NCBI RefSeq assembly: GCF_019670105.1
Contig: NZ_AP023032.1
Coordinates: forward strand, 809,501-873,500
Reading direction: 5' to 3'
Length of the DNA: 64,000 nt
Origin: Agarivorans albus
Lineage (GTDB): Bacteria > Pseudomonadota > Gammaproteobacteria > Enterobacterales > Celerinatantimonadaceae
Part shown: one piece after another, positions 108 to 28,907 of the stretch
Layout of the letters: the number at the start of each line of letters is the position of its first letter
Position numbering within the stretch: position 1 is the first letter of the stretch
The notes under the pieces: model-generated
Databases searched by the model: none
The model's input: only the letters and a program-made list of their open reading frames with translations
Told to the model about the DNA's origin: nothing
Translations under genes and position numbers: made by a program

Positions 108-125
108 ATTTTGGTCAACCAAAAT
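108..125. promoter_or_regulatory. Operator-like palindrome, agar-regulon motif, best copy
   Basis: ATTTTGGT-CA-ACCAAAAT is a perfect 8-bp inverted repeat with a 2-bp centre. It is the most symmetrical copy of a motif that recurs before other agar genes. TTGGT/ACCAA half-sites are typical of FadR-subfamily GntR regulators such as UxuR/ExuR; that assignment is from memory and no GntR gene is in the window. Confidence 0.6.
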
Positions 126-287
126 GGTTTTTAGAGCCTCAACACGGATAAATTAAATTCAATCTTAATGGGTGTATTTTAAGTTGTTGTTTTAATTGTA
201 TTTTATGTCTTTTTGTTGATTATTTTTATTGATCTTAAACAATATTGGACTGCTATTTACTGTATTATTGTTAGCCATTCTAGCTGC

Positions 288-365
288 ATTGGTTTACCAT
301 TTTGTGATTATAGTCACGGCTATCTAACCGCTTTGTCGGTATAAATGCCGTATTGGTTGAACAAT
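288..365. promoter_or_regulatory. Two further operator-like sites before the dehydrogenase operon
   Basis: ATTGGT-TT-ACCATT lies at 288-301 and ATTGGT-TG-AACAAT at 352-365. Each departs from ATTGGT-NN-ACCAAT at one position. The second ends 11 bases before the ATG at 377, so bound protein would block transcription or initiation directly. Spacing of about 64 bases between sites would allow cooperative binding, which is inference. Confidence 0.5.
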
Positions 366-376
366 TGGGTGAGTGA

Positions 377-1849
377 ATGGCAGCAAGTAATCAAATAAGC
401 CAGTGTAAAGATCGGTTTAATGAAGCAACAACATACGACAGGGAACAGTTAAGCACTAAGATTGTTCACATAGGTTTTGGCGCGTTTCATCGCGGCCACC
501 AAGCGGTGTACAACGACTTAACTAACCAAGCATCTGGCGAGTTATGGGGCATTTGTGAAATTAACATGTTTGGTAGCGAAGACTTAGTTGCCAACTTAGT
601 TGCTCAAGACTGTTTGTTTAGTGTTGTTGAAAAATCTAAAGACACCACGACTTCTCGCTTAGTTCGTACCGTTACCGAAGCTATTCATACGCCTGTAAGT
701 GGTATTGCAACGGCCATTGCTAAAATAGCCGAACCACAAGTAGCGATAGTGTCGCTAACCATTACCGAAAAAGGTTACTGCGTTGACCCACAATCGGGTG
801 AGCTTGATGAAGCAAACGCACTGATTAAACATGACTTAGCAAATCCGCAGCAACCGCAATCGGCCTTAGGTTTAATTACCGAAGCGCTGCGAATTCGTCG
901 TGACAATGGCTTAGCGCCAATTAGCGTATTGTCTTGTGACAACATTCCTGAAAATGGTCACCTAACCAAGAATGCTTTGTTGTCTTACGCTCGTAAGTTA
1001 GATAAAGAGCTGGCCAGCTGGATTGAGCAAAATGTTAGCTTCCCTAGCACTATGGTTGACCGAATTTGTCCAGCTATGACAGCCGAAGCCTTTGCCGCGA
1101 TTGAAGCTGAAGTTGGTTATGCCGACCCGTGTGGCGTGGTATGTGAAGATTTCCGTCAATGGGTAGTAGAAGACAACTTTGTAGCTGGTCGCCCAGATTG
1201 GGATTTAGCCGGTGCAATGTTTGTTGCTGATGTATTGCCTTACGAAGAAATGAAACTGCGCATGTTAAATGGTAGTCACTCGTTCTTAGCATATAACGGC
1301 GCGCTTGCAGGTTACGAGTACATATACCAATGCATGCAAGATCCAGCATTTAAAGCGGCAACACTAAAACTGATGACTCAGGAGCAAGCTAAGTCATTAA
1401 GCCCGAGCCTTAACGTTGATTTGCCGGAATACGCCGATCTATTGATAGCGCGTTTTAGTAACGCCAACGTAAAACACAAAACTGCACAGATCGCGATGGA
1501 CGGCTCTCAAAAGCTTCCACAACGCGCGGTTGATCCCTTATTACACCTACAAAACGCCGGCTTAAAAGTCACTTGTTTGCCAATTCTTATTGCAGGTTGG
1601 ATGCATTCAGTTATTCGCGCTGTAAAAGCGGGTGAGCAAATTGTTGACCCATTAGCCGACGAGTTTAAACAGATTGTAGAAAGCAACGGCGAAGCGCTAG
1701 ACCAAGCGAAAGCCTTGTTAGCTATTAACAAAATATTTGGAACGCTTGCTAAAGATAACGCCAAGTTTAGCCAACAGGTGGTATCAGCATTTGCCTCTAT
1801 CGAAGAATACGGCATTGAGTCAGTTGTAGACTCCATTGCAGCGAATTAG
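377..1849 (+). CDS. Mannitol dehydrogenase / fructuronate reductase family oxidoreductase
   Basis: A 490-residue NAD(P)-dependent polyol or sugar-acid dehydrogenase of the long-chain mannitol dehydrogenase family (MtlD, UxuB, UxaB, DalD). The N-terminal Rossmann segment carries IVHIGFGAFHRGHQ near residues 29-42, and the family signature LSCDNIPENGH lies around residue 195. Length is normal for the family. It is cytoplasmic, with no signal peptide. ATG 377 follows a GGTGAG ribosome site. It is the first of three dehydrogenase genes, 9 bases before the next, so they are probably co-transcribed. Relatives reduce fructuronate or tagaturonate; the substrate here cannot be read from sequence. Its place beside agarases suggests a galactose- or anhydrogalactose-derived keto-acid or polyol. 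Confidence 0.85.
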   Translation: MAASNQISQCKDRFNEATTYDREQLSTKIVHIGFGAFHRGHQAVYNDLTNQASGELWGICEINMFGSEDLVANLVAQDCLFSVVEKSKDTTTSRLVRTVTEAIHTPVSGIATAIAKIAEPQVAIVSLTITEKGYCVDPQSGELDEANALIKHDLANPQQPQSALGLITEALRIRRDNGLAPISVLSCDNIPENGHLTKNALLSYARKLDKELASWIEQNVSFPSTMVDRICPAMTAEAFAAIEAEVGYADPCGVVCEDFRQWVVEDNFVAGRPDWDLAGAMFVADVLPYEEMKLRMLNGSHSFLAYNGALAGYEYIYQCMQDPAFKAATLKLMTQEQAKSLSPSLNVDLPEYADLLIARFSNANVKHKTAQIAMDGSQKLPQRAVDPLLHLQNAGLKVTCLPILIAGWMHSVIRAVKAGEQIVDPLADEFKQIVESNGEALDQAKALLAINKIFGTLAKDNAKFSQQVVSAFASIEEYGIESVVDSIAAN

Positions 1850-1858
1850 GAAATATCA

Positions 1859-2875
1859 ATGAAAACATTAGTTTGTAACGAACCATTCTCAATTGAGTAT
1901 GTAGAGCGAGAGAAACCGTCTTATGCCGAAAACGAAGTACTACTGAAAGTTAAAGCAGTAGGTATTTGTGGCACCGACATTCATGCCTTTGCTGGTCGTC
2001 AGCCATTTTTTAGCTACCCGCGGGTACTTGGCCACGAAATTAGTGGTGTAGTTGAAGCCACTGGCAGTGCTTGTAGCACCGCTAAAGTGGGCGAGCGTTT
2101 CTCGGTTATTCCGTGTATTCCTTGTGGCGAATGTTCAGCTTGTGCAGAAGGTAAAACCAACTGCTGTGAGAATGTTTCTTTATATGGCGTACACCAAGAT
2201 GGCGGCTTTACAGAGTACCTAAGCGTACTTGAAAGCAACCTGGTTAAATTGCCAGAAACCGTTAGCGATAGCCAAGGTGCATTAATCGAATGTTTCGCTA
2301 TTAGTGCTCATGCGGTGCGTCGCGCCGAAGTTAAAGCTGGCCAACGAGTGCTGCAAGTTGGTGCTGGCCCAATCGGTTTAGCGGCAGCTGCTATTGCTAA
2401 AGCTAATGGCGCAGAAGTGGTAGTTGCAGACGTAAGTGATGAGCGCCGCGCACATGTAGAAAAAGCCTTGGGCATTAAAACCTTAAATCCTCTTGCGGAA
2501 AATTATGTGGATGACCTAAAAGCAGCCTTTGGCGGCAACTTGGCATGTACCTTATTAGACGCCACTGGGAACAAAGGCTCTATGAGCCGCAGTGTTGAGC
2601 TAATTCGCCATGGCGGCAAGATTGTATTCATCGGTTTATACATCGGTGACTTGGTGCTAGATGACCCAACATTCCACAAAAAAGAAACCACATTATTAAG
2701 CAGTCGCAACGCCACTCGTGAAGATTTTGAGCGCGTGATTGAGTTAATGAGCAAAGGCGAAATCGACGAGAACATCATGAAAAACCGTGATTATGACTTT
2801 GACACAGTTGGTCTTTCTTACCAACAAGATGTAGTGAACAACGCAACGCTTATTAAGGGCGTTATTAATTTTTAG
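1859..2875 (+). CDS. Zinc-dependent alcohol dehydrogenase, L-galactonate 5-dehydrogenase-like
   Basis: A 338-residue medium-chain zinc alcohol dehydrogenase. GICGTDIH and GHE near residues 36-62 supply catalytic zinc ligands. The four-cysteine structural zinc loop is CGECSACAEGKTNCC, around residues 90-105. The cofactor loop GAGPIGLAAAAIAKANG begins near residue 168. The overall pattern recalls E. coli LgoD (YjjN, L-galactonate oxidoreductase) and related sorbitol or threonine dehydrogenases. An AGG box sits 9 bases before ATG 1859. Paired with an UxaB/UxuB-like enzyme upstream, it could form the LgoD-like step of a hexonate route, though substrate assignment is inference. Middle gene of the dehydrogenase operon; 14 bases separate it from the next gene. 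Confidence 0.85.
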   Translation: MKTLVCNEPFSIEYVEREKPSYAENEVLLKVKAVGICGTDIHAFAGRQPFFSYPRVLGHEISGVVEATGSACSTAKVGERFSVIPCIPCGECSACAEGKTNCCENVSLYGVHQDGGFTEYLSVLESNLVKLPETVSDSQGALIECFAISAHAVRRAEVKAGQRVLQVGAGPIGLAAAAIAKANGAEVVVADVSDERRAHVEKALGIKTLNPLAENYVDDLKAAFGGNLACTLLDATGNKGSMSRSVELIRHGGKIVFIGLYIGDLVLDDPTFHKKETTLLSSRNATREDFERVIELMSKGEIDENIMKNRDYDFDTVGLSYQQDVVNNATLIKGVINF

Positions 2876-2889
2876 TCGCGCAGGTAAAT

Positions 2890-3897
2890 ATGACAACAGT
2901 ACACGTAAAGGAAGCCGAGTTAAAAGGACTTGCGCTTAACAAACTTATCGCCGCTGGCCTTGATGAAAACACGGCCAAGGAAGTAACCGAAGTATTAATA
3001 CATGCGGATGCTACCGGTGTTCATTCACACGGAGTTATGCGCGTAGAACATTACTGTGAGCGTTTAGCCAAGGGTGGCTTAAACGCTAAAGCAACATTTT
3101 CAGTAGAGCAAGTATCGCCTTCGGTAGCGGTATTAGACTCTGATGACGGCATGGGCCACTCGGCGCTTATTGCTGCCACCAAACACGGCATAAACCTAGC
3201 TTCTGATACCGGCTTAGGTTTTGTAAGTGTCAAGAATACCTCGCATTGTGGGGCGCTTTCATACTTCATGGAGCAAGCCACAAATGCGGGTATGATTGCC
3301 ATTGGTATGACTCAAACCGATACCTGTGTAGCACCCCATGGTGGCGCAGCTAAGTTTTTGGGAACCAACCCAATTGCCTTTGGTTTTCCGGTTGAAGGCT
3401 CAACGCCAATGATTATCGACATGGCTACAAGTGCAACCGCATACGGCAAGTTACTGCACGCCAAAGAAACCGGTAAGTCTATTGGCAAAGGTTTAGCTAT
3501 TGATGCAGAGGGTAACGAAACCACCGATCCGCATAAAGTGGCGAACTTACTGCCATTTGGTGGGCATAAAGGTTCAGGCATTGCGCTGGCGATTGACGCG
3601 CTAACGGGCATTTTGATGGGCGCTAATTTCGGTAACCACATTGTGAAAATGTATGGTGACTACGAAAAAATGCGTAAGTTGGCGAGCTTAGTGATAGTGA
3701 TTGATCCTAAGAAACTCGGTAACCCTATGTTTGCAGTGATGATGGCTGCAATGGTGAAAGAACTGCACGAAGTTCCACCGGTTCCGGGTGTTGATAAAGT
3801 GCTTGCGCCAAATGACCTTCAAGTGGCTTATCGTGCCGAGTGCGACCTTAATGGCATTCCTGTTGCGCAAGGTGTTTACGACTACCTAGTGAGCTAA
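2890..3897 (+). CDS. Ldh2-family (malate/L-lactate/ureidoglycolate) dehydrogenase
   Basis: A 335-residue NAD(P)-dependent oxidoreductase of the type-2 malate/L-lactate dehydrogenase family, which includes AllD (ureidoglycolate) and YiaK (2,3-diketo-L-gulonate reductase). The signature HADATGVHSHGVMR lies near residues 38-51. The family motifs APHGG, FLGTNPIAFGFP and DMATS follow in order, and FGGHKGSGIAL lies near residue 222. Length is only slightly under the family norm. It closes the three-dehydrogenase operon, and a hairpin terminator follows at 3946. A role in reducing a 2-keto sugar acid (YiaK-like) fits the neighbouring genes, but the substrate is not determined by sequence. Confidence 0.85.
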   Translation: MTTVHVKEAELKGLALNKLIAAGLDENTAKEVTEVLIHADATGVHSHGVMRVEHYCERLAKGGLNAKATFSVEQVSPSVAVLDSDDGMGHSALIAATKHGINLASDTGLGFVSVKNTSHCGALSYFMEQATNAGMIAIGMTQTDTCVAPHGGAAKFLGTNPIAFGFPVEGSTPMIIDMATSATAYGKLLHAKETGKSIGKGLAIDAEGNETTDPHKVANLLPFGGHKGSGIALAIDALTGILMGANFGNHIVKMYGDYEKMRKLASLVIVIDPKKLGNPMFAVMMAAMVKELHEVPPVPGVDKVLAPNDLQVAYRAECDLNGIPVAQGVYDYLVS

Positions 3898-3945
3898 GTG
3901 TTTTAAAAAAGGTAGCAATATGGTGTCGCTCTGTGTTGCTACTAG

Positions 3946-3996
3946 CCTAGGTGCTCTCCTGCAATGGTTCCGCGGGCACCTAGGTTTCTCCTCTTT
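3946..3996 (+). terminator. Terminator after the dehydrogenase operon
   Basis: CCTAGGTGC at 3946-3954 pairs with GCACCTAGG at 3976-3984 and is followed by a pyrimidine-rich run ending in TTTTT. A second short inverted repeat (GTAGCAA/TTGCTAC) lies just before it. The rest of 3898-4209 holds the promoter and operators of the next gene. Confidence 0.7.
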
Positions 3997-4137
3997 TTAT
4001 CTGTGACTAGCCCTTAGTTACGGTGCCTTTCTTATTGGTATTACTTATTGTTTTTAATGACTTTTTTATTGGTATTGAGTTTTCCAAATATCGCTTTGGC
4101 TCACATTAGAACTTGAATTGGTGTGCTAATTTTGTAA

Positions 4138-4193
4138 TCTGGTTATCCAATATTGCTTAGTGGTTGTCCAAATATTGGTTTTGGTTATCCTTT
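4138..4193. promoter_or_regulatory. Cluster of three operator-like sites before the first GH50 gene
   Basis: TCTGGT-TA-TCCAAT (4138-4151), AGTGGT-TG-TCCAAA (4159-4172) and TTTGGT-TA-TCCTTT (4180-4193) are spaced 21 bases apart start to start, two helical turns. All are imperfect copies of ATTGGT-NN-ACCAAT. The last ends just before the ribosome site of the GTG at 4210. The phasing suggests cooperative binding on one DNA face (inference). Confidence 0.5.
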
Positions 4194-4209
4194 TAAGGGA
4201 GGAAATATT

Positions 4210-7143
4210 GTGTTGTTTAAAAAGAGCAACTTAGCAATCCTAGTATCAGTTGTATTAGCTGGGGTATCTACATCAAACGTCATTGCAGATGACACTAAGC
4301 AGTCTAGTGAAAATGCAGCCACTTCGGGTGATATGACCAGCGCGGCAACGCCGCTTGATTTCACCGAGCCAGCAGTATTAGAAAAAATTACCAATAGTCA
4401 TAGTCAGTTCTCGGTGCTTAAGAAAACCGCAGAGCAAAGTAAAGATGGCTTAAAGATGAATTTTGATGCGATCTCTGAAGCCGAGGCGCAATCTAAATGG
4501 CCAAACGTAAAAATCCACTCTAAGGCAGGCCCTTGGGATTGGAATACCAAAGGCGGCTTAAAAGTAGCCCTAGAAAATCCAGGCAGTGAAGACGTTCGCA
4601 TCGAAATGAAAGTGAGCGATAACATTGGCATTATGGGATCGGCCGACAACCAAGTTGATTTACCAATTATTTTGCCAGCGGGCAAAACTACCACCGTAGA
4701 CTTTTTGTTTAACGGTACGCAAATGAATATCGACGGCTACCGCGGTGGTGCTAAGTTAAACCTAAAAAGCATTGCCGAAATCCAATTCTATTCAGTGGGG
4801 CCTATCGCTGCGCAAGAAGTGGTAATTCGTGACATTAACTTTATTGAACGTACCGGCGATTTTGTGAAATCGGAAGCGCGTGAAGCGGAAGTTATTGCTG
4901 CACCTATTCCAACTCTTTTAGCGTTGTCTGATTTTGATGATGGCTCAAAAGGCATTGTTAGCAAGACTCATGGCACAACCATCACCTCAGTGAAGCGTGA
5001 TGAGGGTAAAGGCCTTAAAATTGATTACTCCGCAGACGCGTCTTACCCCAGCGTAACTTTTAGTGCAGATAAACCTTGGAACTGGTCTGAACATGGTGAC
5101 TTTACCTTAGCCCTTGATATTGAAAATATTGGTGATGCCGGCGCACAACTATTTATTCGCGTAGACGATGACGTAAATGAGAAGCAAGGGGGTAGCGCAA
5201 ATGGTGTTATCCATAGTCGTACTGGTTATGTTCAGTTGCCAGCAGGCGAAGCGGGTACTTACTACTTCACATTAGAAGAGCTAGCGAAAACGCTTGATTC
5301 TGGAATGCGAGGCGAGCCACCGAAGAAGTCTTATCAAGCGCAAGCAATCAACTTTGGTTGGGGTGAGCAGAAGCTAGATCTAAGCAATATTGTTAGCTTC
5401 CAACTCTATATGCAAGATCTGCAAAAAGACCTGAGTTTAGTTATCGATAACATTCGTTTAGTGCCTAATTTGAGTGCCGATACCAGCCGCTATGAAGGTT
5501 TGCTGGATGAGTTTGGTCAGTTTACCAATGAAGACTGGGCAGAAAAAATTCACTCAGCTGAAGAGCTACAGGCGCATGCAAAAGCTGATGTTAAGTTGAT
5601 TGATTCGGCCAAACCTATGGACGACCGTACGCCATATGGTGGTTGGAAAAATGGACCTAAACTAGAAGCGACGGGTTACTTTAGAACTGAGAAAGTAGAT
5701 GGGAAATGGTCTTTAGTTGACCCAAGCGGTTACCTGTATTTTGCCACAGGTTTAGACAACATTCGCATGGATGATACCTACACCACCACCGGCGTTGGCT
5801 TTACCGATTTGGTGTTGTCGGAAGATCTTAGCTTGCGTCCTAGCCAGATTTCTCAAGACAGCTATGTAGATAATCAAGATGCTCGTTCAGTGGCTTCGCA
5901 GTTACGTAACAGCATGTTTACTTGGTTACCTAGCTATCAAGATGCCTTGGCGCAAAACTATCAATATTCCACCATGATTCACACCGGCCCGCTTGAGCAT
6001 GGCGAGGTTTATAGCTTTTACAGTGCTAACTTGCAGCGTAAATATGCGCCCGATTCTCGCGATGAAGCGATTGCGGTATGGCGTGACGTAACGCTGGCTC
6101 GTATGTTGGATTGGGGTTTTACCTCGTTAGGTAACTGGGCCGATCCAAGTTTTTACGGTAATCAAAAAGTTGCGTACGTAGCAAACGGTTGGATTGTGGG
6201 CGACCACCAACGCATTAATACCGGTAACGATTACTGGGGCCCAATGCACGACCCATACGACCCAGAGTTTGTTGAGTCTGTGAAAACAATGGCTAAGCAA
6301 GTTGCCGCAGAAGTAGAGCAAGACCCTTGGTGTATAGGCACCTTTGTGGATAACGAAATGAGCTGGGGTAACACCGAGTTTGACGCTAACCACTATGCCT
6401 TAGCGATTGCTGCTTTGCGTGCTGACGCTAAAGATAGCTTTGCTAAAGCTGCATTTGTTGGCTTGTTAGAAGCGAAATATGCGCAAGATATCCAGGCGCT
6501 GAACAAGGCATGGGGAAGCGAACTTAAATCATGGGATGAACTGGCTAAAGGCTATGTGCATCAAGGTGATTTGAACGACGCACTTAAGGCCGATTACAGT
6601 ATGTTCTTGGCTGACCACTCTGATCGTTACTTTGCGATTGTACAGCAACAGATGAAGCAGGTATTACCTAACCACCTTTACCTAGGTGCGCGTTTTACCG
6701 AGTGGGGGATCACTCCTGAAGCTGCAAATAGTGCTGCCCAATATGTAGATGTAATGAGTTACAACCTCTACGGCAACGACATGTCGAAGGGCGATTGGAG
6801 CCACCTTGCTGAGTTGGATATGCCAAGCATTATTGGTGAGTTCCACTTTGGTGCTACCGACAGCGGGATGTTCCACCCTGGTCTAGTGGCTGCCGATACC
6901 CAGCAAGGGCGTGCCGAGAAGTATGCCCACTATATGGATAGTGTTATTGCTAATCCTTACTTTGTTGGTGCGCATTGGTTCCAGTACCTAGATTCGCCAA
7001 CTACTGGTCGAGCTTGGGACGGAGAAAACTACAACAATGGTTTTGTCACTGTAGCTGACTCGCCCTATGAAAAACTGGTAGCAGGAGCTGCAGAAGTTAA
7101 CCGTAAGCTGTATCCACAGCGTTACCCAGAGCTGGTGAAGTAG
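4210..7143 (+). CDS. GH50 beta-agarase, signal-peptide form
   Basis: A 977-residue family GH50 beta-agarase cleaving beta-1,4 links of agar, probably mostly in exo fashion to neoagarobiose. The start is GTG 4210, seven bases after GGAGG; an upstream TTG frame lacks a ribosome site and would bury the signal peptide. An N-terminal signal peptide ends near NVIA|DD. Two carbohydrate-binding-like beta-sandwich repeats precede the catalytic barrel, which begins around the GYFRTEKVDGKWSLVDP motif near residue 490. Catalytic glutamates by family motif are E716 in VDNEMSWGN and E877 in IIGEFHFG. The C-terminal motif AHWFQY is intact. No lipobox or C-terminal anchor is seen, so the enzyme should be periplasmic or secreted. 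It is closely similar throughout to the GH50 protein at 15152. Confidence 0.93.
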   Translation: MLFKKSNLAILVSVVLAGVSTSNVIADDTKQSSENAATSGDMTSAATPLDFTEPAVLEKITNSHSQFSVLKKTAEQSKDGLKMNFDAISEAEAQSKWPNVKIHSKAGPWDWNTKGGLKVALENPGSEDVRIEMKVSDNIGIMGSADNQVDLPIILPAGKTTTVDFLFNGTQMNIDGYRGGAKLNLKSIAEIQFYSVGPIAAQEVVIRDINFIERTGDFVKSEAREAEVIAAPIPTLLALSDFDDGSKGIVSKTHGTTITSVKRDEGKGLKIDYSADASYPSVTFSADKPWNWSEHGDFTLALDIENIGDAGAQLFIRVDDDVNEKQGGSANGVIHSRTGYVQLPAGEAGTYYFTLEELAKTLDSGMRGEPPKKSYQAQAINFGWGEQKLDLSNIVSFQLYMQDLQKDLSLVIDNIRLVPNLSADTSRYEGLLDEFGQFTNEDWAEKIHSAEELQAHAKADVKLIDSAKPMDDRTPYGGWKNGPKLEATGYFRTEKVDGKWSLVDPSGYLYFATGLDNIRMDDTYTTTGVGFTDLVLSEDLSLRPSQISQDSYVDNQDARSVASQLRNSMFTWLPSYQDALAQNYQYSTMIHTGPLEHGEVYSFYSANLQRKYAPDSRDEAIAVWRDVTLARMLDWGFTSLGNWADPSFYGNQKVAYVANGWIVGDHQRINTGNDYWGPMHDPYDPEFVESVKTMAKQVAAEVEQDPWCIGTFVDNEMSWGNTEFDANHYALAIAALRADAKDSFAKAAFVGLLEAKYAQDIQALNKAWGSELKSWDELAKGYVHQGDLNDALKADYSMFLADHSDRYFAIVQQQMKQVLPNHLYLGARFTEWGITPEAANSAAQYVDVMSYNLYGNDMSKGDWSHLAELDMPSIIGEFHFGATDSGMFHPGLVAADTQQGRAEKYAHYMDSVIANPYFVGAHWFQYLDSPTTGRAWDGENYNNGFVTVADSPYEKLVAGAAEVNRKLYPQRYPELVK

Positions 7144-7158
7144 GCTCTGTTTGTAGCC

Positions 7159-7190
7159 AAAAGACGAGCCTAGCTCGTCTTTTGTTTTAT
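7159..7190 (+). terminator. Terminator after the first GH50 gene
   Basis: AAAAGACGAGC (7159-7169) and GCTCGTCTTTT (7173-7183) form a perfect 11-bp stem with a three-base loop, followed by GTTTTAT. The A-rich left arm would let it work in both directions. Confidence 0.85.
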
Positions 7191-7238
7191 CTAAATCACT
7201 ATAAAAATCATTACACTAAACGCGTAGTAAGGAAACAT

Positions 7239-8216
7239 ATGCCCACTATCATAGACGTAGCAAAAAAAGCTGGCGTGTCTGTTGCCACAGTATCGCGAAT
7301 AATTAATCAAACTACCTTTGTTAGCGAAGCCAAGGTGGAAAAAGTAAATCAGGCGATAAAAGCACTAAATTTTATTCCAAATTATCATGCGCAAAATCTC
7401 ACCAACAACCCCAAAATTGGTCCAGCGATGATTGTGCAGTCGATACAAGATCCGCTTACCGCAACCTTGCTAAAGGCTTTGTCGGCAGAAGCGTCCAGTA
7501 ACTCAATGCCGCTACACTTGGTTTCTGGTGCGCATTCAGAAGCACAAGAAATTGAGATGTTAGAAAACTACTTAAGCCTTGGCGTGCAGTCGTTATATTT
7601 TGAAAGTGTCTATATGGAAGAAGCGAGACTGGGCGAGTTTATGCGTTTACATCCCGGTTTATTGGTGGCTAAACGTCACTTACCAAGCTATGCCAAACAG
7701 TGTTTGCACCTAGACATTGTTACCAGCCTTTGGCTGGCAGTAAAGCTGTTGGTAGAGCACGGTCACAAGCATATTACGGTAATGTGCGAAGCGCAGCAGT
7801 ACTGCGCTATTGAGCAAGGCTTAAGCCATATCGATAGCCCATTTAAGCAAGCTAATATTGCCCTTAGTCGCTTATCCCATGATCCCAACGACTGCTTAAG
7901 TAGTGATGCCTTATCATCGCCTGCTTCGGCTTTTGTTTGTTTGTCTGCTCGTTTAAGTTGGCCGGTATGGCAACAGCTAAAAGAGCAGTTGGGCTGCACT
8001 AATCCTTTTGAATTTATTGGCTCATCCAATAATGCAGCAGACAGCAAAGCCAGCTATAGCACTCTCTATTACCCAGTGCAGGCAATGGCGCAGCAAGCCT
8101 TAAGCTTCTTAAGTAGCGAACAGCAGGCTATTCCGAAAGTGTTTATGGCACAGCTTCAAGAGCGTTACTCCGACCAAGAATTGGGTTATTTAAGTGATTT
8201 AGGAGCAACCGCTTAA
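7239..8216 (+). CDS. LacI-family transcriptional regulator of the agar locus
   Basis: A 325-residue LacI/GalR-type regulator. The helix-turn-helix TIIDVAKKAGVSVATVSRIIN occupies residues 3-23, and the hinge and periplasmic-binding-like sensor domain follow. ATG 7239 is chosen because TAAGGA precedes it and LacI proteins begin just before this helix; an upstream frame to 7182 has no such signal. The sensor part is somewhat degenerate and slightly short, typical of clade-specific sugar regulators. It lies between agarase and beta-galactosidase genes, so neoagaro-oligosaccharides or galactose are plausible effectors (inference). LacI proteins usually bind palindromes with a central CG. The repeated TTGGT/ACCAA motif here lacks that centre, so which protein uses it is open. 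Confidence 0.85.
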   Translation: MPTIIDVAKKAGVSVATVSRIINQTTFVSEAKVEKVNQAIKALNFIPNYHAQNLTNNPKIGPAMIVQSIQDPLTATLLKALSAEASSNSMPLHLVSGAHSEAQEIEMLENYLSLGVQSLYFESVYMEEARLGEFMRLHPGLLVAKRHLPSYAKQCLHLDIVTSLWLAVKLLVEHGHKHITVMCEAQQYCAIEQGLSHIDSPFKQANIALSRLSHDPNDCLSSDALSSPASAFVCLSARLSWPVWQQLKEQLGCTNPFEFIGSSNNAADSKASYSTLYYPVQAMAQQALSFLSSEQQAIPKVFMAQLQERYSDQELGYLSDLGATA

Positions 8217-8218
8217 TG

Positions 8219-10827: not shown

Positions 10828-11910
10828 TTAATTTGAATTTTGATAAGTTGAAGCATCAAGAACTTGTTTCTTCACCCGGTAGCGACAAATAAAGTTCCAG
10901 TTCCACGAGGCGTCATACTTGTGGCACAAGCCCCACTCAAGGCCTGGTGACTCGATGGCTGTCTCTTGATTTGGGCGGAATATGCCTAGCGCTTCTGGCG
11001 CGCCTTTAATATAAGACATGATTTCGAAGTTAATACCATCAGCTGCCCACTGCACGGTATTCTTTTCTGGGCCGTCGGTGGTGATTAGCGAGGCTATCCC
11101 GCCATCTTTGTGCCAAACCGCAACTTCGTGGCCACTGTTTGAAATAGGGTTGTACTCCGATTTCACATACGGGCCAAGAATGTCTTTTGCTATCGCCACG
11201 CCGTGTTTAATTTCGCGGCCGCCCATGTTCATTTCTTCACCCATGGTTTCACCTTTATAGTAAAGGTAGAACTCACCCTTGAAGAACATTAGGCAGGGAT
11301 CGTGCACTTTATGGCTGTCGAAACTGCCTTTTGAATTGACCAAGAATCGATTGTCTTCTTCGGTGCGCCATTCGCCATCTTTAGCTGGGCTTACAATTGG
11401 AGCTGGTGATTTGGTCCATGGGCCAAATGGGCTATCGGCCCAAGCAATGGCAATCTCTTCAAATTGTCGGTTGGTGTAAGGCGCCTGAACAGTTTGGTAA
11501 ACTAAGTAGTATTTGCCGTCGTGGGCTAAAACTTCTGGGGTGAATACGGCGCGGTCATCGTAGGCTCCTGCTTCACCTGGGGCAATAGCACAACCGTGCT
11601 CTTTCCAAGTAATGCCATCTTCAGAACTGGCATGCCAAACTTCGGTCAGATCCCAAGGAAAAACCTTATCTTGAGGGTTGCCAGTAAAGCCGAGAGTTTC
11701 GCCTTCACCTTTGGTATACCAGCAGTGGTAAACACCCTCTACCTCTATTACTGCGGTGGGGTCACGACGAATCACACCCTCTTCAAAAGCAAAGTCACCT
11801 TGTAAGCTTTGCTCTTCAAACTCAACCATCCACTCAGGCCCTTTTTTATCGTAACCACGCTCAATAGCGCGTTTACTGGCCAAGCTTAGCTTGCTACCTG
11901 TCCCTGACAT
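10828..11910 (-). CDS. GH117 alpha-1,3-(3,6-anhydro)-L-galactosidase (neoagarobiose hydrolase)
   Basis: A 360-residue GH117 enzyme that splits neoagarobiose into 3,6-anhydro-L-galactose and D-galactose. The family's N-terminal dimer-swap motif SxAxxR is present as SLASKR near residues 9-14. Likely catalytic acids lie in [10 protein letters not shown] (near residue 50), in [12 protein letters not shown] (near residue 205) and in the ESPG segment (near residue 325), by analogy with characterised GH117 enzymes. There is no signal peptide, so it is cytoplasmic. ATG 11910 follows AGAGG. It is the first gene of a two-gene unit with the GH2 gene and has an agar-regulon operator about 50 bases upstream. 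Confidence 0.92.
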
Positions 11911-11960: not shown

Positions 11961-11974
11961 AAAGGTAAACCAAT
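11961..11974. promoter_or_regulatory. Operator-like site upstream of GH117
   Basis: AAAGGT-AA-ACCAAT, read on the minus strand as ATTGGT-TT-ACCTTT, lies about 50 bases before the GH117 ATG. One half-site is perfect and the other is degenerate at two positions. Confidence 0.5.
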
Positions 11975-12292
11975 TTCAAGTAATGGTACATTAACTTACT
12001 CTAAAGCAGCTATTGAGATGAAAGAAAAGTGACCAATGACACACTTTTGTAACTTAATTTTTAGCTTTCATAACCCACTTGTTTAATTTGACAATCTTTT
12101 TGTATGACAAGCTTTCCGGCCGCAAACCCCCATGAATAAAGGCTTGGCGAATGTTAACGCTTATTAACTCATCAACCAATTGGCTGTAAGACCTAGCATT
12201 TTGCCAACCAATAGCCGTATTTATGTCGAAATGTTAGCGGTGTCACTTTAAATTGGTTGATCATTATGTACGATGAAGCAAGTTATTTAGAT

Positions 12293-12306
12293 ATTGGTTT
12301 ACCAGT
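12293..12306. promoter_or_regulatory. Operator-like site upstream of the MFS transporter
   Basis: ATTGGT-TT-ACCAGT lies 43 bases before the MFS start codon. The same 14 bases occur in inverted orientation at 28862-28875, before the SemiSWEET gene. An exact match between two sites 16 kb apart supports a shared regulator. Confidence 0.6.
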
Positions 12307-12349: not shown

Positions 12350-13618
12350 ATGAAAACCGATTCTAACCGAGTCGCCATGGGCAAAGTTTGCCTTATGTAC
12401 TTTTTTTACAACTTCTTCTGGTCGTTAAGCTCAGGTTCTTTATTTGCTGTATGGCTAAACGACAAAGTTGGCATTGATGGCTCTCAGATTGGCGTATTGT
12501 TTGGCTTGCAAACCGGTATTGCGGTTTTGTTTAAACCTGCTTTTGGCTATATCCTCGATAAGCTTGGTCTTAAAAAACACCTTATATACTTCATCTCTTT
12601 CTTAAGCTTGTTAATTGGTCCTTTCTACATTTATGTTTACGGCCCACTACTGGGTAACGATTCAACATTTGTATTGGGTATTGTGGCTGGTTCTGTGTAT
12701 TTGGGTATGTTGTTCCAAGCCGGCAGTGGTGTTATCGCTTCTTATAGTGACCGTTTTGCGCGTTGCCATGATAACGATTTCGGACTGGTTAACGGCTTTG
12801 GTATCGCGGCTTGGGGTGTTTCGGCAGTATTGGCTGGTTACTTGTATAACATCAACCCAGACTTCATTTTCTACGCCTGTAGTATTGCTGCTTTCTTAAT
12901 GCTGTTGTGTGCTTGGTTACTTAAAGTAAGCCACTTAGAAAATGTTGATAACGAAGTTATCTCGCAGGACAAAATTCAAAAAGAAGATGTTATTCGCCTA
13001 TTGAAGAACCCTAAAATGTGGGCCTTCATGACCTACGCGGGCACTATTTCGGTGGTGTTCTGGACTTCAATGAGCCAGTTTACTCGCTACTTTATTAGTT
13101 TCTTTCCTACCCAAGAAGAAGGTATTTCTTTTAGCTCTAACATGGACGGGCTTACCGCTATCTTCCTGTTCTTTGTGAGTGCTGGTGTGCCTTTTATTAT
13201 TCGTAAAATTGGTGCTAAAGGCAGCCTTATTCTTACCGCTGTTGGTATCACCTCTTTCTTGCTAATGATTGGTTTTGCAGGCTTAGGTGAGAAAAACCTC
13301 TACTTAGCCATTGTTGCTAAATTGCTGTTCGGCATCGTTAATCCGCTGTTGATTGTGTCGGTATTTGCTTACACCGCTGAGCAGTTTGATAAGAAAGTAA
13401 ATTCCTTTACTTACATGTTTGGATTCCAAGTGGTTAATAACCTGATGACGGCCATTGCTGCGCCAGTGATGGGTGTGATGTACGACCAACATGGATTCCC
13501 ACATAGCTATATCTATTTTGGTGTGTTCGCTGCTGTTGCCACGGTATTGGCGATGTTCACACTAAGTTCCAAGAAGACGCTGACTACAACAGATCAACAA
13601 GAAACCGTAGCAGCTTAA
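12350..13618 (+). CDS. MFS sugar:proton symporter, LacY-like family
   Basis: A 422-residue inner-membrane transporter with about twelve hydrophobic segments. The N-terminal FFYNFFWSLSSGSLFAVWL and the motif-A-like GYILDKLGLKKH (near residue 75) match the oligosaccharide:H+ symporter group that includes LacY, RafB and CscB. ATG 12350 is placed by the GGAG box six bases upstream; an earlier in-frame start at 12317 lacks one. It heads a forward block with porin and agarase genes, so its cargo is most likely neoagarobiose or a related disaccharide (inference from context). Control by the site at 12293 is likely. Confidence 0.88.
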   Translation: MKTDSNRVAMGKVCLMYFFYNFFWSLSSGSLFAVWLNDKVGIDGSQIGVLFGLQTGIAVLFKPAFGYILDKLGLKKHLIYFISFLSLLIGPFYIYVYGPLLGNDSTFVLGIVAGSVYLGMLFQAGSGVIASYSDRFARCHDNDFGLVNGFGIAAWGVSAVLAGYLYNINPDFIFYACSIAAFLMLLCAWLLKVSHLENVDNEVISQDKIQKEDVIRLLKNPKMWAFMTYAGTISVVFWTSMSQFTRYFISFFPTQEEGISFSSNMDGLTAIFLFFVSAGVPFIIRKIGAKGSLILTAVGITSFLLMIGFAGLGEKNLYLAIVAKLLFGIVNPLLIVSVFAYTAEQFDKKVNSFTYMFGFQVVNNLMTAIAAPVMGVMYDQHGFPHSYIYFGVFAAVATVLAMFTLSSKKTLTTTDQQETVAA

Positions 13619-21069: not shown

Positions 21070-21076
21070 GGACTGT

Positions 21077-21121: not shown

Positions 21122-21133
21122 TCAGGAAGAAAT

Positions 21134-21535: not shown

Positions 21536-21569
21536 CAGCAATTGATAGCGTTTTGGTAAGAGAAAAAGT

Positions 21570-22421: not shown

Positions 22422-22439
22422 ACATAAGCGAGACTAAAC

Positions 22440-23918: not shown

Positions 23919-23945
23919 CAAATAAACTTAAATAGTAGGAAGTAA

Positions 23946-24410
<465 letters not shown>

Positions 24411-24418
24411 GTGCACTA

Positions 24419-24453
24419 AATCCACTTAGCCAAGGCTAAGTGGATTCTTTTTT
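24419..24453 (+). terminator. Terminator after the YhcH-family gene
   Basis: AATCCACTTAGCC (24419-24431) and GGCTAAGTGGATT (24434-24446) form a perfect 13-bp stem with a two-base gap, followed by CTTTTTTG. It marks the end of the long forward block. Confidence 0.92.
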
Positions 24454-24892
24454 GATGTTACTCGCTTATTAGCCTTTCACCCATCACTACTAATATTCCT
24501 TGATTAATGCCAGTTAACCTGCGCGCTGCTGTTTACTTCACCATAAAAAATCCCAGCAATATAGACTGTTGTGCTAGCCGATACCCATAGTGATACCTCT
24601 ATTGACTTAGGGTTAAAGCATTAAGGCTTAGCACTTCGTTTACGCTTAAGCTTGGCTAACACGAGGCATGGTTCACAAGTTTGTAAAAATTGGTTTTCCA
24701 ATAATTTAGATTGGTTGACATTTGATTGGCTGAAGTCATTATTACCCTTAGATATTTTTCTGTTTTAACGCGTCGCTTGGCAGCTAGAAAGTTTAATACT
24801 TAAGGTTTGTTAGTTAAGTTTTCTCTATGGCTTAGTTATATTGCCTAGACTCTGCCATGGCTATCAGGACGCTAATCATTTGAGGATACATA
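24454..24892. other. Gene-free control region before the cytoplasmic GH50 gene
   Basis: No coding region is supported. A promoter and two operator-like sites lie near 24689-24743. A further 150 bases separate them from the start codon, so the transcript probably has a long 5-prime leader. No known riboswitch was recognised in it. Confidence 0.5.
24689..24743 (+). promoter_or_regulatory. Operator-overlapped promoter for the cytoplasmic GH50 gene
   Basis: ATTGGT-TT-TCCAAT (24689-24702) and ATTGGT-TG-ACATTT (24710-24723) are agar-regulon-type sites. The second contains TTGACA (24715-24720), which with ATTATT 17 bases downstream makes a plausible sigma-70 promoter. Protein on these sites would cover the -35 element, implying repression. 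Confidence 0.55.
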
Positions 24893-27166
24893 ATGGAAAC
24901 GCGCTTAAGGGCTGACTCAGCTAAAACTATATCTGAGCATGAGCAATCAATTTTGATTTATGATTTTGCTGAGCAAATTCCTAAGGCTTTTAGTTTTAGC
25001 AACGTGGACGCAGAATTGGTAAGTGAAGGCAACGGCATTACTACTGGTTCGCAAGCCTTAAAAGTTACTACACATAGCAAAGAAAACTTTTACACCTCAA
25101 TCTTTATCGAACCTGAGCAGCCTTTTGATTGGAGTGCGCTTCCTAACTTTAGTTTTGCATTTGACGTCACAAACTTAGGTCGTCGTTCAACACAGATTTT
25201 CATCAATATCTTCGACAAACAAGGGCAAATGCATAGCCGCAGCATTAACGTAGCCGGTGGCTCTTGCAAAACTTATTTAAACGAGCTTAAAGGTGAGTTT
25301 TTAAAGGGGGGGCTTAACTATGAATCGGGTTTTCGCTCTAACCCAGCAGCCTGGGATACGCCATTTCACTATGCAACGTGGATGTGGGGTGAGATGAACA
25401 TCGATTTAAGTGCCGTTGCCAAAATTGAATTAAGCATTCACGGTACTTTGATTGATCATCAGTTGGTGTTAGATAACTTTAGAGTGATTTTTACCCCGGA
25501 ATGTAATCCCGATTTTCTTAAAGGTTGTTTAGATAAGTTTGGTCAAAATGCTTTAGTGGAAACCGCGGAAAAAGTACATTCTGAAGAAGAGTTATTGGCG
25601 GTTACAGCCAAAGAGCTTAAAGCCTTAGAGCAAGGTGCTATGCCCCAGCGTTCGCGCTTTAGTGGTTACACTGGAGGTCCGCAGCTAGAGGCAACCGGCT
25701 TTTTCCGTACCGAAAAAATCGACGGTAAATGGTCGTTAGTTGACCCAGATGGTTACCCATACTTTGCTACCGGCCTCGACATTATTCGCCTAGCAAACTC
25801 ATTTACTATTACCGGTATTGATTACGACCACTCAAAAGTGGCTGCGCGTAGCGATGACGATGTTACTCCTGAAGACTCTAAAGAAAAGCTCGAAATTAGC
25901 CAAGAAGCCTTTGATTCAGCCTATGTTGCCAACCAAACTCGCCGAGACTTTTTTGATTGGTTGCCTAGCTACGACGACCCCTTAGCTGAGCATTACAGCT
26001 ATATGCGTGAGCTGTTTGAAGGCCCAGTTGATCGCGGCGAAATCTTTAGTTTTTACTCGGCAAATCTACAGCGCAAGTACGGTCAAGATGGCGCCGATTA
26101 CATGGGCAAGTGGCGCGAAGTCACCATGGACCGCATGCTTAACTGGGGCTTTTCTTGTTTAGGTAATTGGACTGCTCCAGAGTTTTACAGTAACGACAAA
26201 ATTCCTTATTTCGCCAATGGCTGGATTATTGGAGACTTTAAAACAGTGACTAGTGGCGATGATTTTTGGGCGCCACTGCCTGATCCTTTCGACCCGGTAT
26301 TTAGAGAGCGCGCCGAAGCAACGGTAAGCCAAGTTAAAGCCGAAATGCAAGGTTCACCATGGTGTGTGGGTATTTTCATTGATAATGAGAAAAGCTGGGG
26401 CCGAATGGGCACCATTAATGGCCATTATGGTATTACGATCCATACTCTAGGTCGCAGCGATGAAGAGAGCCCAACTAAGGCGGTATTCACTCAAGCCTTA
26501 AAAGACAAGTACGGCACTGTAGAACAGCTTAACCAAGCTTGGGGGACGAACATCGACTCTTGGCAAGCAGTAGCTGGTGGCGTTAGTGATTTAGCCCATA
26601 ACGAAGCACAGCTTAGTGACTACTCCATGTTATTAGAGTTGTACGCCAGCGAATACTTCAAAGTGGTAAACGAGTCGCTTAAAGCTCAATTACCTAATCA
26701 CTTGTACTTGGGGGCTCGATTTGCTGATTGGGGCTGTAATCCAGAGGTGGTAAGAGCGGCGGCAAAACATGTGGATGTTGTAAGTTACAACTACTACAAA
26801 GAAGGGCTACATCCAGAACCTTGGAAGTTTTTGGCTGAAGTAGACATGCCGAGCATTATTGGTGAGTTTCATATTGGCGTTAAAGAAGGTTTCTTCCACG
26901 CAGGTTTGGTGACGGCTAATGACCAAACCGAGCGCGGCGAGATGTTTGAAGATTACTTAAACTCAGTGATTGATAACCCATATTTTGTCGGCGCACATTG
27001 GTTCCAATACATTGATTCACCGATTACTGGGCGTTCGTTTGACGGCGAAAACTACAATGTGGGTTTTGTGGGCATAACCGATGTGCCATATCAGCCAATG
27101 GTTGATGCTGCTAAACGGGTAAATGGCGGCATGTATCAGCGCCGTTTTAAAAATGCGAAAAAGTAG
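24893..27166 (+). CDS. GH50 beta-agarase, signal-less (cytoplasmic) form
   Basis: A 757-residue GH50 enzyme with only one beta-sandwich domain before the catalytic barrel. The N-terminus METRLRADSAKTISEHEQ is hydrophilic and no signal peptide is seen, so it should stay in the cytoplasm. ATG 24893 follows GAGGAT. Catalytic glutamates by motif are E499 (FIDNEKSWGR) and E658 (IIGEFHIG). The barrel motifs FFRTEKIDGKWSLVDPDG and AHWFQYIDSPITGR are intact. It probably trims imported neoagaro-oligosaccharides to neoagarobiose for GH117. It is transcribed alone from its own operator-bearing promoter. Confidence 0.93.
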   Translation: METRLRADSAKTISEHEQSILIYDFAEQIPKAFSFSNVDAELVSEGNGITTGSQALKVTTHSKENFYTSIFIEPEQPFDWSALPNFSFAFDVTNLGRRSTQIFINIFDKQGQMHSRSINVAGGSCKTYLNELKGEFLKGGLNYESGFRSNPAAWDTPFHYATWMWGEMNIDLSAVAKIELSIHGTLIDHQLVLDNFRVIFTPECNPDFLKGCLDKFGQNALVETAEKVHSEEELLAVTAKELKALEQGAMPQRSRFSGYTGGPQLEATGFFRTEKIDGKWSLVDPDGYPYFATGLDIIRLANSFTITGIDYDHSKVAARSDDDVTPEDSKEKLEISQEAFDSAYVANQTRRDFFDWLPSYDDPLAEHYSYMRELFEGPVDRGEIFSFYSANLQRKYGQDGADYMGKWREVTMDRMLNWGFSCLGNWTAPEFYSNDKIPYFANGWIIGDFKTVTSGDDFWAPLPDPFDPVFRERAEATVSQVKAEMQGSPWCVGIFIDNEKSWGRMGTINGHYGITIHTLGRSDEESPTKAVFTQALKDKYGTVEQLNQAWGTNIDSWQAVAGGVSDLAHNEAQLSDYSMLLELYASEYFKVVNESLKAQLPNHLYLGARFADWGCNPEVVRAAAKHVDVVSYNYYKEGLHPEPWKFLAEVDMPSIIGEFHIGVKEGFFHAGLVTANDQTERGEMFEDYLNSVIDNPYFVGAHWFQYIDSPITGRSFDGENYNVGFVGITDVPYQPMVDAAKRVNGGMYQRRFKNAKK

Positions 27167-27193
27167 TGCGTTTTGACGTTTAACCTTAACTAA

Positions 27194-27218
27194 GAAAGGG
27201 GACTTCGGTCTCCTTTTC
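27194..27218 (+). terminator. Terminator after the cytoplasmic GH50 gene
   Basis: GAAAGGGGAC, a TTCG tetraloop, then GTCTCCTTTTC form a stable hairpin with a built-in T-run 27 bases after the stop codon. Confidence 0.8.
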
Positions 27219-27348
27219 ATTGATATACCAATACGTGGTTTATCTACTGGGAAAGTCTGTTGCTACTTCTTGTTTATCTTGGTTAATACGACCAGCGGTA
27301 AGCATGTTGATGTAATGATTGGCTTTGCGCCAAGTGATATAAGAATTG

Positions 27349-27434
27349 TAGCCACACCTTAATGAATCCGTTTGTTAAATAATCCAGTGTGGCTATAACG
27401 CCAGAAGTGCAAGATCGGCTTCTGGTGTTTTTTT
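27349..27434 (+). ncRNA. Candidate small RNA or second terminator
   Basis: TAGCCACAC (27349-27357) pairs perfectly with GTGTGGCTA (27387-27395). It is followed at once by a second hairpin, CGCCAGAAG / CTTCTGGTG, with a run of seven T (27399-27434). There is no open reading frame and another terminator lies 130 bases upstream, so this may be the 3-prime end of a small RNA starting in 27230-27340. It may also be only a back-up terminator. The remainder of 27219-27592 shows nothing else. Confidence 0.35.
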
Positions 27435-27592
27435 GTCCTTCCTACTCTCGTTACTAAACTTCAACAATTAGCTTGTGACTCATTACTCTTGGCTCATGAT
27501 AGTCTTACAAGCTGATGGCTTAATCGCTGAGTCATTTATAGAGCTGTGTGATGTCTGTTTAGTATGATGCTGGTGGCTCAAGTATGCTTCAA

Positions 27593-28444
27593 CTAAGGGG
27601 CGCTTATTGATTGCCAGTGGCTAACCCGCTGCTGTTTAACTCCCGATTGCTGAATGGCTTTTTCAACTAAACCTAAGCGAATGATCTCTGCTAAGCCTTG
27701 ATCAATGGCTTGAGCAATTTCAGCTCCATGTGGGTGCTGTTTCGACACCATAAAATGACGGCTTTCTTGAAATTCTATTTTCATATTCGGGATCGGATAA
27801 AAGCTGCCATAACTATCTTGAATGGCTAGGTCTGGGGTATTCGGGAACTCTAAAAAGGCAACGTTAATTCGGCCCTTACTTAACATGCCAAACAATGACT
27901 GATTACGGTTGAGTTTATCTATGTTGTTAAAGCCACTACGCTGCAACTGGGCTATGTCTTGATACCAAGTACTTCCCACACTGATGGGTAATTCTCTGAG
28001 CTGTTCATGAGTTAAAATTTGGCTGAGCAGGGGAGAACCTTGGTTAACATAAAAGCCTTTTTCAAAGGTATTTTTAGGGATAATAGCCACCGACTTGTAG
28101 GTACTGTCATCAAAGTCACTTTCCCAGATGTCGGCCTGATATACCGCCACATTGCCTTGTTTCAACTCTCGCAGGCTGCGACCGGTATTCGGCGAGGTTA
28201 CAAAGGTGAGCGAATACTGTAAATCGCTATAGCTGAGGGCTTGAGTTAACAGCAGCAAGCTTACGGTTGCGCGATCTGAATAGGGTGACTCATAATCATT
28301 GATTTGGGCTGGGTTGTCGCCTTTTAGCTCAAGCAATTGCTGGTAATTTGAGAAGGTGCCTTGGTCACCAATAATCGACACTTCTATAGCGGCGAAAGAA
28401 GAAAAGCTATACAGGCATAAAATGCTGAGTATCCACGATCTCAC
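27593..28444 (-). CDS. Periplasmic substrate-binding-like protein (family 3 type)
   Basis: A 283-residue exported protein. A signal peptide (MRSWILSILCLYSFSSFA|A) precedes a type-2 periplasmic-binding-like domain with IEVSIIGDQGTFSNYQQLLEL, then SDRATVSLLLLTQAL and a C-terminal SGVKQQRVSHW. It is the same length as the protein at 21570 and probably belongs to the same broad group, but the sequences are not close. It stands alone on the minus strand, with no transporter genes around it. Such orphan proteins often feed sensors or chemoreceptors elsewhere. The ligand is unknown. Confidence 0.65.
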   Translation of the reverse strand: MRSWILSILCLYSFSSFAAIEVSIIGDQGTFSNYQQLLELKGDNPAQINDYESPYSDRATVSLLLLTQALSYSDLQYSLTFVTSPNTGRSLRELKQGNVAVYQADIWESDFDDSTYKSVAIIPKNTFEKGFYVNQGSPLLSQILTHEQLRELPISVGSTWYQDIAQLQRSGFNNIDKLNRNQSLFGMLSKGRINVAFLEFPNTPDLAIQDSYGSFYPIPNMKIEFQESRHFMVSKQHPHGAEIAQAIDQGLAEIIRLGLVEKAIQQSGVKQQRVSHWQSISAP

Positions 28445-28569
28445 TATTGCTCCTTATTTGTTTAGGGCGGCCTTAACTAATTTGGCAGTTACTTACTGTA
28501 GCGTAAGATAACAACTTAAAGTGTAGACCGCTTCACAGTCGCTATTAGGAACAGTGGTTTAAGGAGCGA

Positions 28570-28848
28570 TTAAGCTTTGTTTTTAGATGACTTAATACGC
28601 TGAATAATGGTGAGAATCAGCACCCAGGAGGCGAGGATAAAAGTAATAATATTGGCTAAAAAAACCGATAGATCTTGTATTAAGAAGCCGTAAATCATCC
28701 ACAGACCTACGCCAGTGGTTAATATGGAATACATGGTTAATGAAATTCCAGCAACATTCTTGGTCTTAATAATGTGAATTACCTGCGGGACAAACGACAA
28801 AGTGGTGCAGCTAGCTGCTATTAATCCAAGAACCGTAAGGGCTGTCAT
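28570..28848 (-). CDS. SemiSWEET-type sugar transporter
   Basis: A 92-residue membrane protein with three hydrophobic helices. The PQ-loop motif SFVPQVIHIIKTKNVAGIS lies near residues 18-36 in helix 1, and a second conserved stretch follows around SILTTGVGLWMIYGF. This is the size and topology of a bacterial SemiSWEET, which works as a dimer to move sugars down their gradient. Two agar-regulon-type sites lie 14-60 bases upstream of the ATG. It may therefore move galactose, anhydrogalactose or a breakdown product across the inner membrane (inference). The gene stands alone. Confidence 0.85.
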   Translation of the reverse strand: MTALTVLGLIAASCTTLSFVPQVIHIIKTKNVAGISLTMYSILTTGVGLWMIYGFLIQDLSVFLANIITFILASWVLILTIIQRIKSSKNKA

Positions 28849-28861
28849 CTAAACTTCATTT

Positions 28862-28907
28862 ACTGGTAAACCAATTTGGGTGAATTATACCTTTTTGGTT
28901 AACCTTG
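28862..28907. promoter_or_regulatory. Two operator-like sites before the SemiSWEET gene
   Basis: ACTGGT-AA-ACCAAT (28862-28875) is the exact reverse complement of the site at 12293-12306. TTTGGT-TA-ACCTTG (28894-28907) is a weaker second copy 32 bases away. Both lie in the short gap between the SemiSWEET start and the LysR stop, where they can act only on the SemiSWEET gene or as distal sites. Confidence 0.6.

Follow-up and report, generated by a model that had tools for sequence, protein, structure and literature searches.

What controls the agar genes of Agarivorans albus? The stretch analysed here is a 64,000-nucleotide window (C1:809501-873500; window base 1 is C1:809501) of a single-contig, 4.79 Mb genome, in which agarase-type genes are preceded by copies of a palindrome, ATTGGTNNACCAAT. 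In all likelihood a single regulatory protein docks at this palindrome. We propose that its copies are operators of a single UxuR-like GntR regulator, encoded inside the agar/3,6-anhydro-L-galactose (AHG) locus itself, that would switch the agar programme by repression and by induction with an AHG-derived acid; we give this reading a probability of about 0.83. The DNA displays the regulator gene, predicted sites before gntR and before AHG-type, transport and agarase genes, the conservation of those sites, and a distant agarase-type gene preceded by the same sites. Below, the source genome of the window is G000, and other G numbers denote relatives.

A UxuR-like GntR protein in the agar/AHG locus

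The initial annotation of the window had suspected a FadR-subfamily GntR protein of the UxuR/ExuR kind, possibly encoded outside the window, and such a gene is indeed present. An FCD-domain search of G000 returned six proteins, one of them in the agar/AHG locus. Its gene, gntR (C1:804120-804899, plus strand), lies 4.6 kb before the window, with a predicted site before it. The product joins an N-terminal GntR winged helix (PF00392, 67 bits; cut-off 27) to a C-terminal FCD domain (PF07729, 76.6 bits; cut-off 24.3), and in NCBIfam it is matched best by UxuR (210.5 bits; cut-off 442) and ExuR (190.6 bits; cut-off 396), both scoring below cut-off. Its identity to the E. coli proteins is 42% for UxuR and 37% for ExuR. 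Residues R36, R46, R50, D144, H148, H199 and H221 are invariant in an alignment of nine sequences; by analogy with FadR-type structures they would serve DNA and metal binding, with D144, H148, H199 and H221 on the metal side.

The neighbours of gntR encode an aldehyde dehydrogenase, a sugar-porter MFS protein, an enolase-superfamily protein, a KDPG-type aldolase and a KDG/KDGal-type kinase. By resemblance and the known pathway, we assume AHG roles for them, the aldehyde dehydrogenase being AHG dehydrogenase-like and the enolase-superfamily protein AHG cycloisomerase-like. Predicted operators stand before gntR itself (ATTGATTTACCAAA, C1:804064), before the AHG dehydrogenase-like gene (TTTGGTAAACCAAT, C1:803814) and before the MFS gene (TTTGGTTAGCCAAT, C1:806638); all three lie outside the window and outside the stretch that yielded the motif. 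According to PMC4494728, the operator consensus of the FadR subfamily is a palindrome with TKGT/ACMA boxes, and TTGGT/ACCAA is present in the promoters of the predicted regulon.

Palindromes upstream of the agar genes

Within the window, 18 positions match ATTGGTNNACCAAT with at most two mismatches, where 3.24 are expected; none of 100 shuffles reached 18. Every palindrome listed in the initial annotation proved to be present when checked for mismatches against ATTGGTNNACCAAT, and two further sites were found, at 4117 (two mismatches, 86% conserved) and 12252. The predicted operator TTTGGTCAACCAAA (110..123; two mismatches, fully conserved in five genomes) lies between the kinase gene on the minus strand and a plus-strand operon (377..3897) whose products match UxuB-family, Zn-dependent and Ldh2-family dehydrogenases in NCBIfam and Pfam. 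It is followed by predicted operators ATTGGTTTACCATT (288..301; one mismatch, fully conserved) and, 64 bp or about six turns from 288, ATTGGTTGAACAAT (352..365; one mismatch, 93% conserved). The first GH50-like agarase gene (4213..7143, plus strand; start uncertain between GTG at 4210 and TTG at 4213) carries an Agarase_CBM domain by Pfam, and we take its GH50 name from the initial annotation. Three weak predicted operators stand directly before it, at 4138, 4159 and 4180 (4138..4193; 3, 3 and 4 mismatches), with the spacing of exactly 21 bp that had been noted earlier. This array is kept in five genomes, with a 2-base insertion in G004, and ends 16-19 bp before the likely start codon.

Farther along, the minus-strand gene at 10828..11910, which matches GH43 and GH32 in Pfam and which we assume, again with the initial annotation, to be GH117-like, is preceded by predicted operator AAAGGTAAACCAAT (11961..11974; two mismatches, fully conserved). 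Upstream of a LacY-family sugar transporter gene (12350..13618, plus strand; PF01306, 260.5 bits) are predicted operators ATTGGTTGATCATT (12252..12265; two mismatches, 93% conserved) and, 41 bp on, ATTGGTTTACCAGT (12293..12306; one mismatch, fully conserved). The second GH50-like gene (24893..27166, plus strand; Agarase_CBM domain by Pfam), whose product was initially called cytoplasmic, is preceded by predicted operator ATTGGTTTTCCAAT at 24689 (one mismatch) and, 21 bp on, by the weak site ATTGGTTGACATTT at 24710 (three mismatches), a pair (24689..24723) that overlaps a TTGACA -35-like hexamer. Finally, the SemiSWEET gene (28570..28848, minus strand; NCBIfam SemiSWEET_2, 97.3 bits, cut-off 80) is preceded by predicted operator ACTGGTAAACCAAT (28862..28875; one mismatch), which is kept in G006 and has a perfect palindrome at its matching position in G001, and by the weak site TTTGGTTAACCTTG 32 bp from 28862 (28894..28907; four mismatches, core kept in G006). 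Each of the 14-mers at 12293 and 28862 is the exact reverse complement of the other, as the initial annotation had stated.

The weak candidates at 4138-4193, 24710 and 28894 are insufficient by consensus alone; it is conservation and spacing that back them. Nine of the 18 matches look accidental: seven because they fall inside open reading frames (4538, 4654, 4894, 7416, 16429, 27011 and 32906), the one at 27219 because its stretch is absent from G006, and the one at 63725 because it is distant from the agar genes. A matrix of 17 sites, all from G000, gives 16 bits or more to the matches at 4538, 16429 and 27219, which are nevertheless probably accidental.

Conservation within the genus

We aligned six promoters with their counterparts in four relatives of the same genus (in three of them for the GH50-like promoter at 24.7 kb), of which G006 and G004 are the more divergent. 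Across the 11 sites with at most two mismatches the mean identity is 0.935, compared with 0.599 (standard deviation 0.078) at circularly shifted positions, and none of 20,000 shifts equalled it. Both TTTTGGTCAACCAAAA, before the kinase gene, and ATTGGTTTACCAGT, before the LacY-like gene, are unchanged in 5/5 genomes with diverging flanks; the lowest conservation is that of the MFS site (0.71). The initial annotation had named absence of the motif before agar genes of related Agarivorans as a finding that would speak against a regulon; the same-genus alignments showed conserved sites instead.

One member of the genus, G005, is without the GntR and without the cycloisomerase-like gene. It has 33 motif matches, equal to G000; the closest two are 7.9 kb apart, and no pair falls within 500 bp. 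In G000, four inter-site gaps are 500 bp or shorter, with 0.11 expected; three are in the regulon and the fourth separates the genome's only two perfect ATTGGTNNACCAAT palindromes. These (C1:3079453 and 3079597; L032:9453 and 9597) lie 144 bp apart before the gene for a small outer-membrane beta-barrel, far from the agar cluster, and are unexplained; G001 has no counterpart of the pair.

The regulator and its motif in other families

Matches to the GntR protein (E ≤1e-70) occur in 18 of 394 genomes of the order, spread over five families, and matches to the cycloisomerase-like gene (E ≤1e-100) in 25 of the 394, the one in G002 being partial. The two tend to occur together: 16 of the 18 GntR genomes have the cycloisomerase-like gene (G153 and G359 do not), compared with 9 of the other 376 (Fisher P 2.5e-20, uncorrected for shared ancestry). 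In 12 relatives, sites of at least 12 bits gave 89 intergenic hits in 76 kb versus 30 coding hits in 380 kb. They occupy the kinase/UxuB-like and the AHG dehydrogenase/gntR intergenic regions and also precede MFS, GH117-like/LacY-like, GH50-like and LamB-like genes, many of them the same orthologues. For 24 distant loci, some overlapping and partly redundant, we counted 140 intergenic hits of at least 8 bits; 200 permuted palindromic matrices averaged 18.6 and peaked at 127. The gap is specific as well: TTGGT-N-ACCAA palindromes with at most one mismatch number 79 at a gap of 2 versus 3-15 at gaps of 0, 1 and 3-7. Two agar-clade GntR proteins per genome were seen in G008, in G009 and in Vibrio ulleungensis (L041/L050).

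PMC4494728 gives a GT-AC distance of 2 bases for UxuR and 3 for ExuR, and the 2-base gap thus fits UxuR rather than ExuR. When our matrix was run over 10 kb of the E. coli uxu region, the top four hits were at uxuA/gntP (18.1 and 16.9 bits) and uxuR (17.0 and 13.5), the next reaching 9.3; the best hit in the exu region scored 9.9 bits. In a tree of the regulators, read without outgroup rooting, the agar regulator falls in a separate group, 12 rows in size (split support 100/100), that excludes UxuR, ExuR and the UxuR-like proteins found in G007 and G010; in both of these genomes UxuA adjoins the UxuR-like gene. Judged as an equivalog of UxuR, the protein has the 2-base gap, and it lacks the score, the grouping with E. 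coli UxuR and the linkage to uxuA or hexuronate genes. Neither its ExuR score nor the gap preference (14 sites at a gap of 3 versus 79 at 2) is that of an ExuR.

Helical spacing of the sites

Site pairs no more than 70 bp apart, in G000 and relatives together, number 49, and 47 of these are spaced at 20-22, 31-33, 41-44, 51-53 or 62-65 bp (the others at 23 and 26). For a reduced set of 27 pairs (from G000, its distant locus, G072, G378, G246, G008 and G002) the mean cosine at a period of 10.55 is 0.79, against -0.01 (standard deviation 0.14) for jittered positions, and none of 3000 jitters equalled it; pairs from orthologous promoters are not fully independent, and the jitter control is the one on which this test stands, the permuted-motif control having given no motif with at least 8 pairs. 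The best-fitting period is 10.9-11.0. Spacing of nearby sites by whole DNA turns suggests cooperative arrays. A related but different observation, of weaker extra half-sites 7-12 nt from the centres of GntR-family sites, appears in PMC4494728.

We tentatively entertain a broader picture, which we regard as doubtful in its full form: a UxuR relative may have taken over agar digestion as its master switch across several marine families, acting through cooperative arrays on one DNA face (about 2, 3, 4 and 6 turns), with insulation by gap length in G007. That genome has both a UxuR-like protein adjoining UxuA and an agar-clade regulator, and its uxu-side promoter holds three palindromes with a 3-base gap (L083:13080, 13195 and 13228). 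A 3-base gap there would insulate the two regulators from each other, an idea drawn from one genome and weakened by five gap-3 palindromes (at most one mismatch) in the agar locus of the same genome.

Predicted targets beyond the cluster

The initial annotation had described a single regulon spanning 29 kb. The proposed agar regulon is supported, and its extent is revised: its start lies 5.7 kb ahead of the window, and a predicted target is found far outside it. Four sites (C1:2157495, 2157718, 2157762 and 2157794) precede the gene for a 1339-residue protein, 1.35 Mb from gntR. This protein contains a CBM6 domain, a porphyranase beta-sandwich and a C-terminal porphyranase domain; it looks secreted, and we assume that this porphyranase/agarase-type protein is GH86-like. 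Each of the four is retained in 5/5 genomes of the genus that carry the gene and, although letters have changed, never scores below 13.9 bits; upstream of the homologue in G008 are two sites 22 bp apart. A gene for a GH16 protein with a ricin-type domain is a tentative further target: a site begins 33 bp before its start codon in three genomes.

A model of repression, and its alternatives

On the model of E. coli UxuR, an annotated repressor, we think repression the likelier mode, lifted by an AHG-derived acid. A GntR dimer would bind TTGGT-NN-ACCAA and repress, covering the -35 region at some promoters and acting at others through arrays on one DNA face. A carboxylate made only during agar breakdown would bind the FCD domain and release the protein; candidates are 3,6-anhydro-L-galactonate, 2-keto-3-deoxy-L-galactonate or a product of the dehydrogenase operon. 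A little AHG could thereby turn the whole system on, a feed-forward induction. Sites overlap -35-like hexamers before the kinase gene, before the GH50-like gene at 24.9 kb (TTGACA) and before gntR. Between the predicted operators at 288 and 352 of the dehydrogenase operon lies a CRP-like site, TGTGATTATAGTCACG (303-318, one mismatch), whose half-sites are kept in 5/5 aligned genomes and whose spacer changes, suggesting added catabolite control.

Several observations weigh against this reading. Raw genome-wide counts of the motif are not in excess of a reversed control, at 505 versus 491 with at most two mismatches and 33 versus 38 with at most one. Of the six FCD proteins, the motif was weighed for the locus GntR alone. 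The -35 overlap is weak evidence, as the operator can itself contain TTGACC, and promoter-like hits exceed shuffles in two of five stretches (those of the 24.9 kb GH50-like gene and gntR) and not in the other three. In G006 and G004 the GH16 site has decayed, and those genomes have a different candidate farther upstream. Nine of the 25 genomes with a cycloisomerase-like gene are without this GntR (at most six candidates were scored per genome), and few sites surround the GntR gene in G359 (0), G341 (1), G090 (1) and G153 (2); in G090 the cycloisomerase gene is about 60 kb from gntR, beyond the stretch scanned.

The raw counts are what would be expected if the palindromes were chance AT-rich sequences kept only through promoter conservation, and equal frequency across the genome had been named in the initial annotation as grounds for doubt. 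That holds for abundance and not for position. Seven of the 33 sites with at most one mismatch fall within the agar cluster (C1:803814-838375, 34.6 kb; 0.24 expected, binomial P 3.7e-9), three precede the distant porphyranase/agarase-type gene, two the outer-membrane protein gene and one the GH16 gene; the other 20, which we do not count as regulon members, comprise 16 in open reading frames and four in intergenic positions before genes without a clear agar link. Matrix hits of at least 14 bits number 15 in the 36.5 kb cluster (some coding), none in the other 35 kb of the window and three in 134.5 kb of other G000 loci; these matrix counts and the cluster enrichment are partly circular, the motif having been read off the same region. 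It is position, not abundance, that sets the motif apart, and given the conservation test, the permuted-matrix control, the gap specificity, the helical spacing and the recurrence before orthologues, we find chance scarcely credible.

Which protein binds, and what it senses, can be weighed in the same way. The gene for the LacI-family protein (7239-8216) is part of the cluster, with agar genes on either side, and its product carries a LacI DNA-binding domain; one CG-centred LacI-type match occurs upstream of the SemiSWEET gene (28915, one mismatch). That match is the sole one in window 1-31000 to TGNAANCGNTTNCA with at most one mismatch. LacI-family operators are normally CG-centred, and a central CG is missing from all 17 matrix sites, which bears out the initial annotation's doubt about this protein; it is also less conserved than the GntR protein (66% versus 98% identity in G004), and the same motif with the same gap occurs at the E. 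coli uxu promoters. We rejected it as the binder, a role that we rate as highly improbable. As an observation in its own right, Pfam found no sugar-binding domain in it, and the G004 stretch with its homologue gave no GH2 gene match.

An ordinary UxuR/ExuR hexuronate regulon, with the agar genes as bystanders or secondary members, would account for a regulator and operator that are clearly UxuR-related and for the UxuB-family enzyme encoded by the first operon. We consider this very unlikely and rejected it in its plain form: UxuA and UxaC have no match in G000, and this is therefore not a hexuronate regulon; agarase-type, GH117-like and AHG-type genes are among those with sites; the regulator belongs to a different clade; and G007 keeps a UxuR-like protein adjoining UxuA in addition to its agar-clade protein. 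The same GntR regulator might instead act mainly as an activator, or in both ways, with phased upstream arrays recruiting polymerase. In favour of this are sites far upstream, about -315 to -391, at the distant porphyranase/agarase-type gene, and the conserved CRP-like site; E. coli UxuR, on the other side, is annotated as a repressor, and some sites overlap -35-like hexamers or closely precede the start codon of the first GH50-like gene. We judge activation unlikely, if worth keeping in mind, and repression by the UxuR-like GntR protein remains our preferred reading.

Other features of the window

Two strong tandem hairpins (3911-3986) lie between the Ldh2-family gene and the first GH50-like gene. 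The 108-nt hairpin stretch folds at -37.6 kcal/mol (z -4.8) and is largely conserved in relatives; Rfam gave no match to the hairpins at gathering scores. A 6S RNA is encoded on the minus strand at 53254-53434 (Rfam RF00013, 122.5 bits).

Comparison with known systems

Agar induction can now be tested directly, from a regulator gene, a matrix of its operators and a list of targets; the system also offers a part for AHG-responsive expression systems, and it exemplifies the rewiring of a sugar-acid regulator to a polysaccharide. The literature searched, which mostly lacks subscription papers and so leaves priority unproven, contained no UxuR-like regulator of agar or AHG use and no match joining UxuR and agarase. 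A term search of three agar papers (PMC7326809, PMC5943477 and PMC10163077) found no such regulator, and PMC3124978 names a GntR for alginate.

The closest known system is E. coli UxuR, which responds to a fructuronate-type ligand. It shares the domain pair, 42% identity and the TTGGT-NN-ACCAA operator with its 2-base gap, and its region likewise holds paired sites: those before uxuR are separated by 20 bp, those before uxuA by 106 bp (10 turns). The agar regulator differs in its separate clade, its score below the UxuR cut-off, its agar/AHG-type targets and a genome without a UxuA or UxaC match. E. coli ExuR belongs to the same subfamily, at 37% identity, but has a 3-base operator gap (PMC4494728) and a region without a strong matrix hit. 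CgrA of Zobellia galactanivorans (PMC5698469) likewise controls the degradation of a red-algal galactan, but it is an AraC-type protein from another phylum acting on another polysaccharide, carrageenan. DagR of Streptomyces coelicolor, claimed as an agarolytic repressor, differs by belonging to the LacI family; that paper, the only LacI-type agar-regulator claim in the literature searched, has been retracted (PMC9178413).

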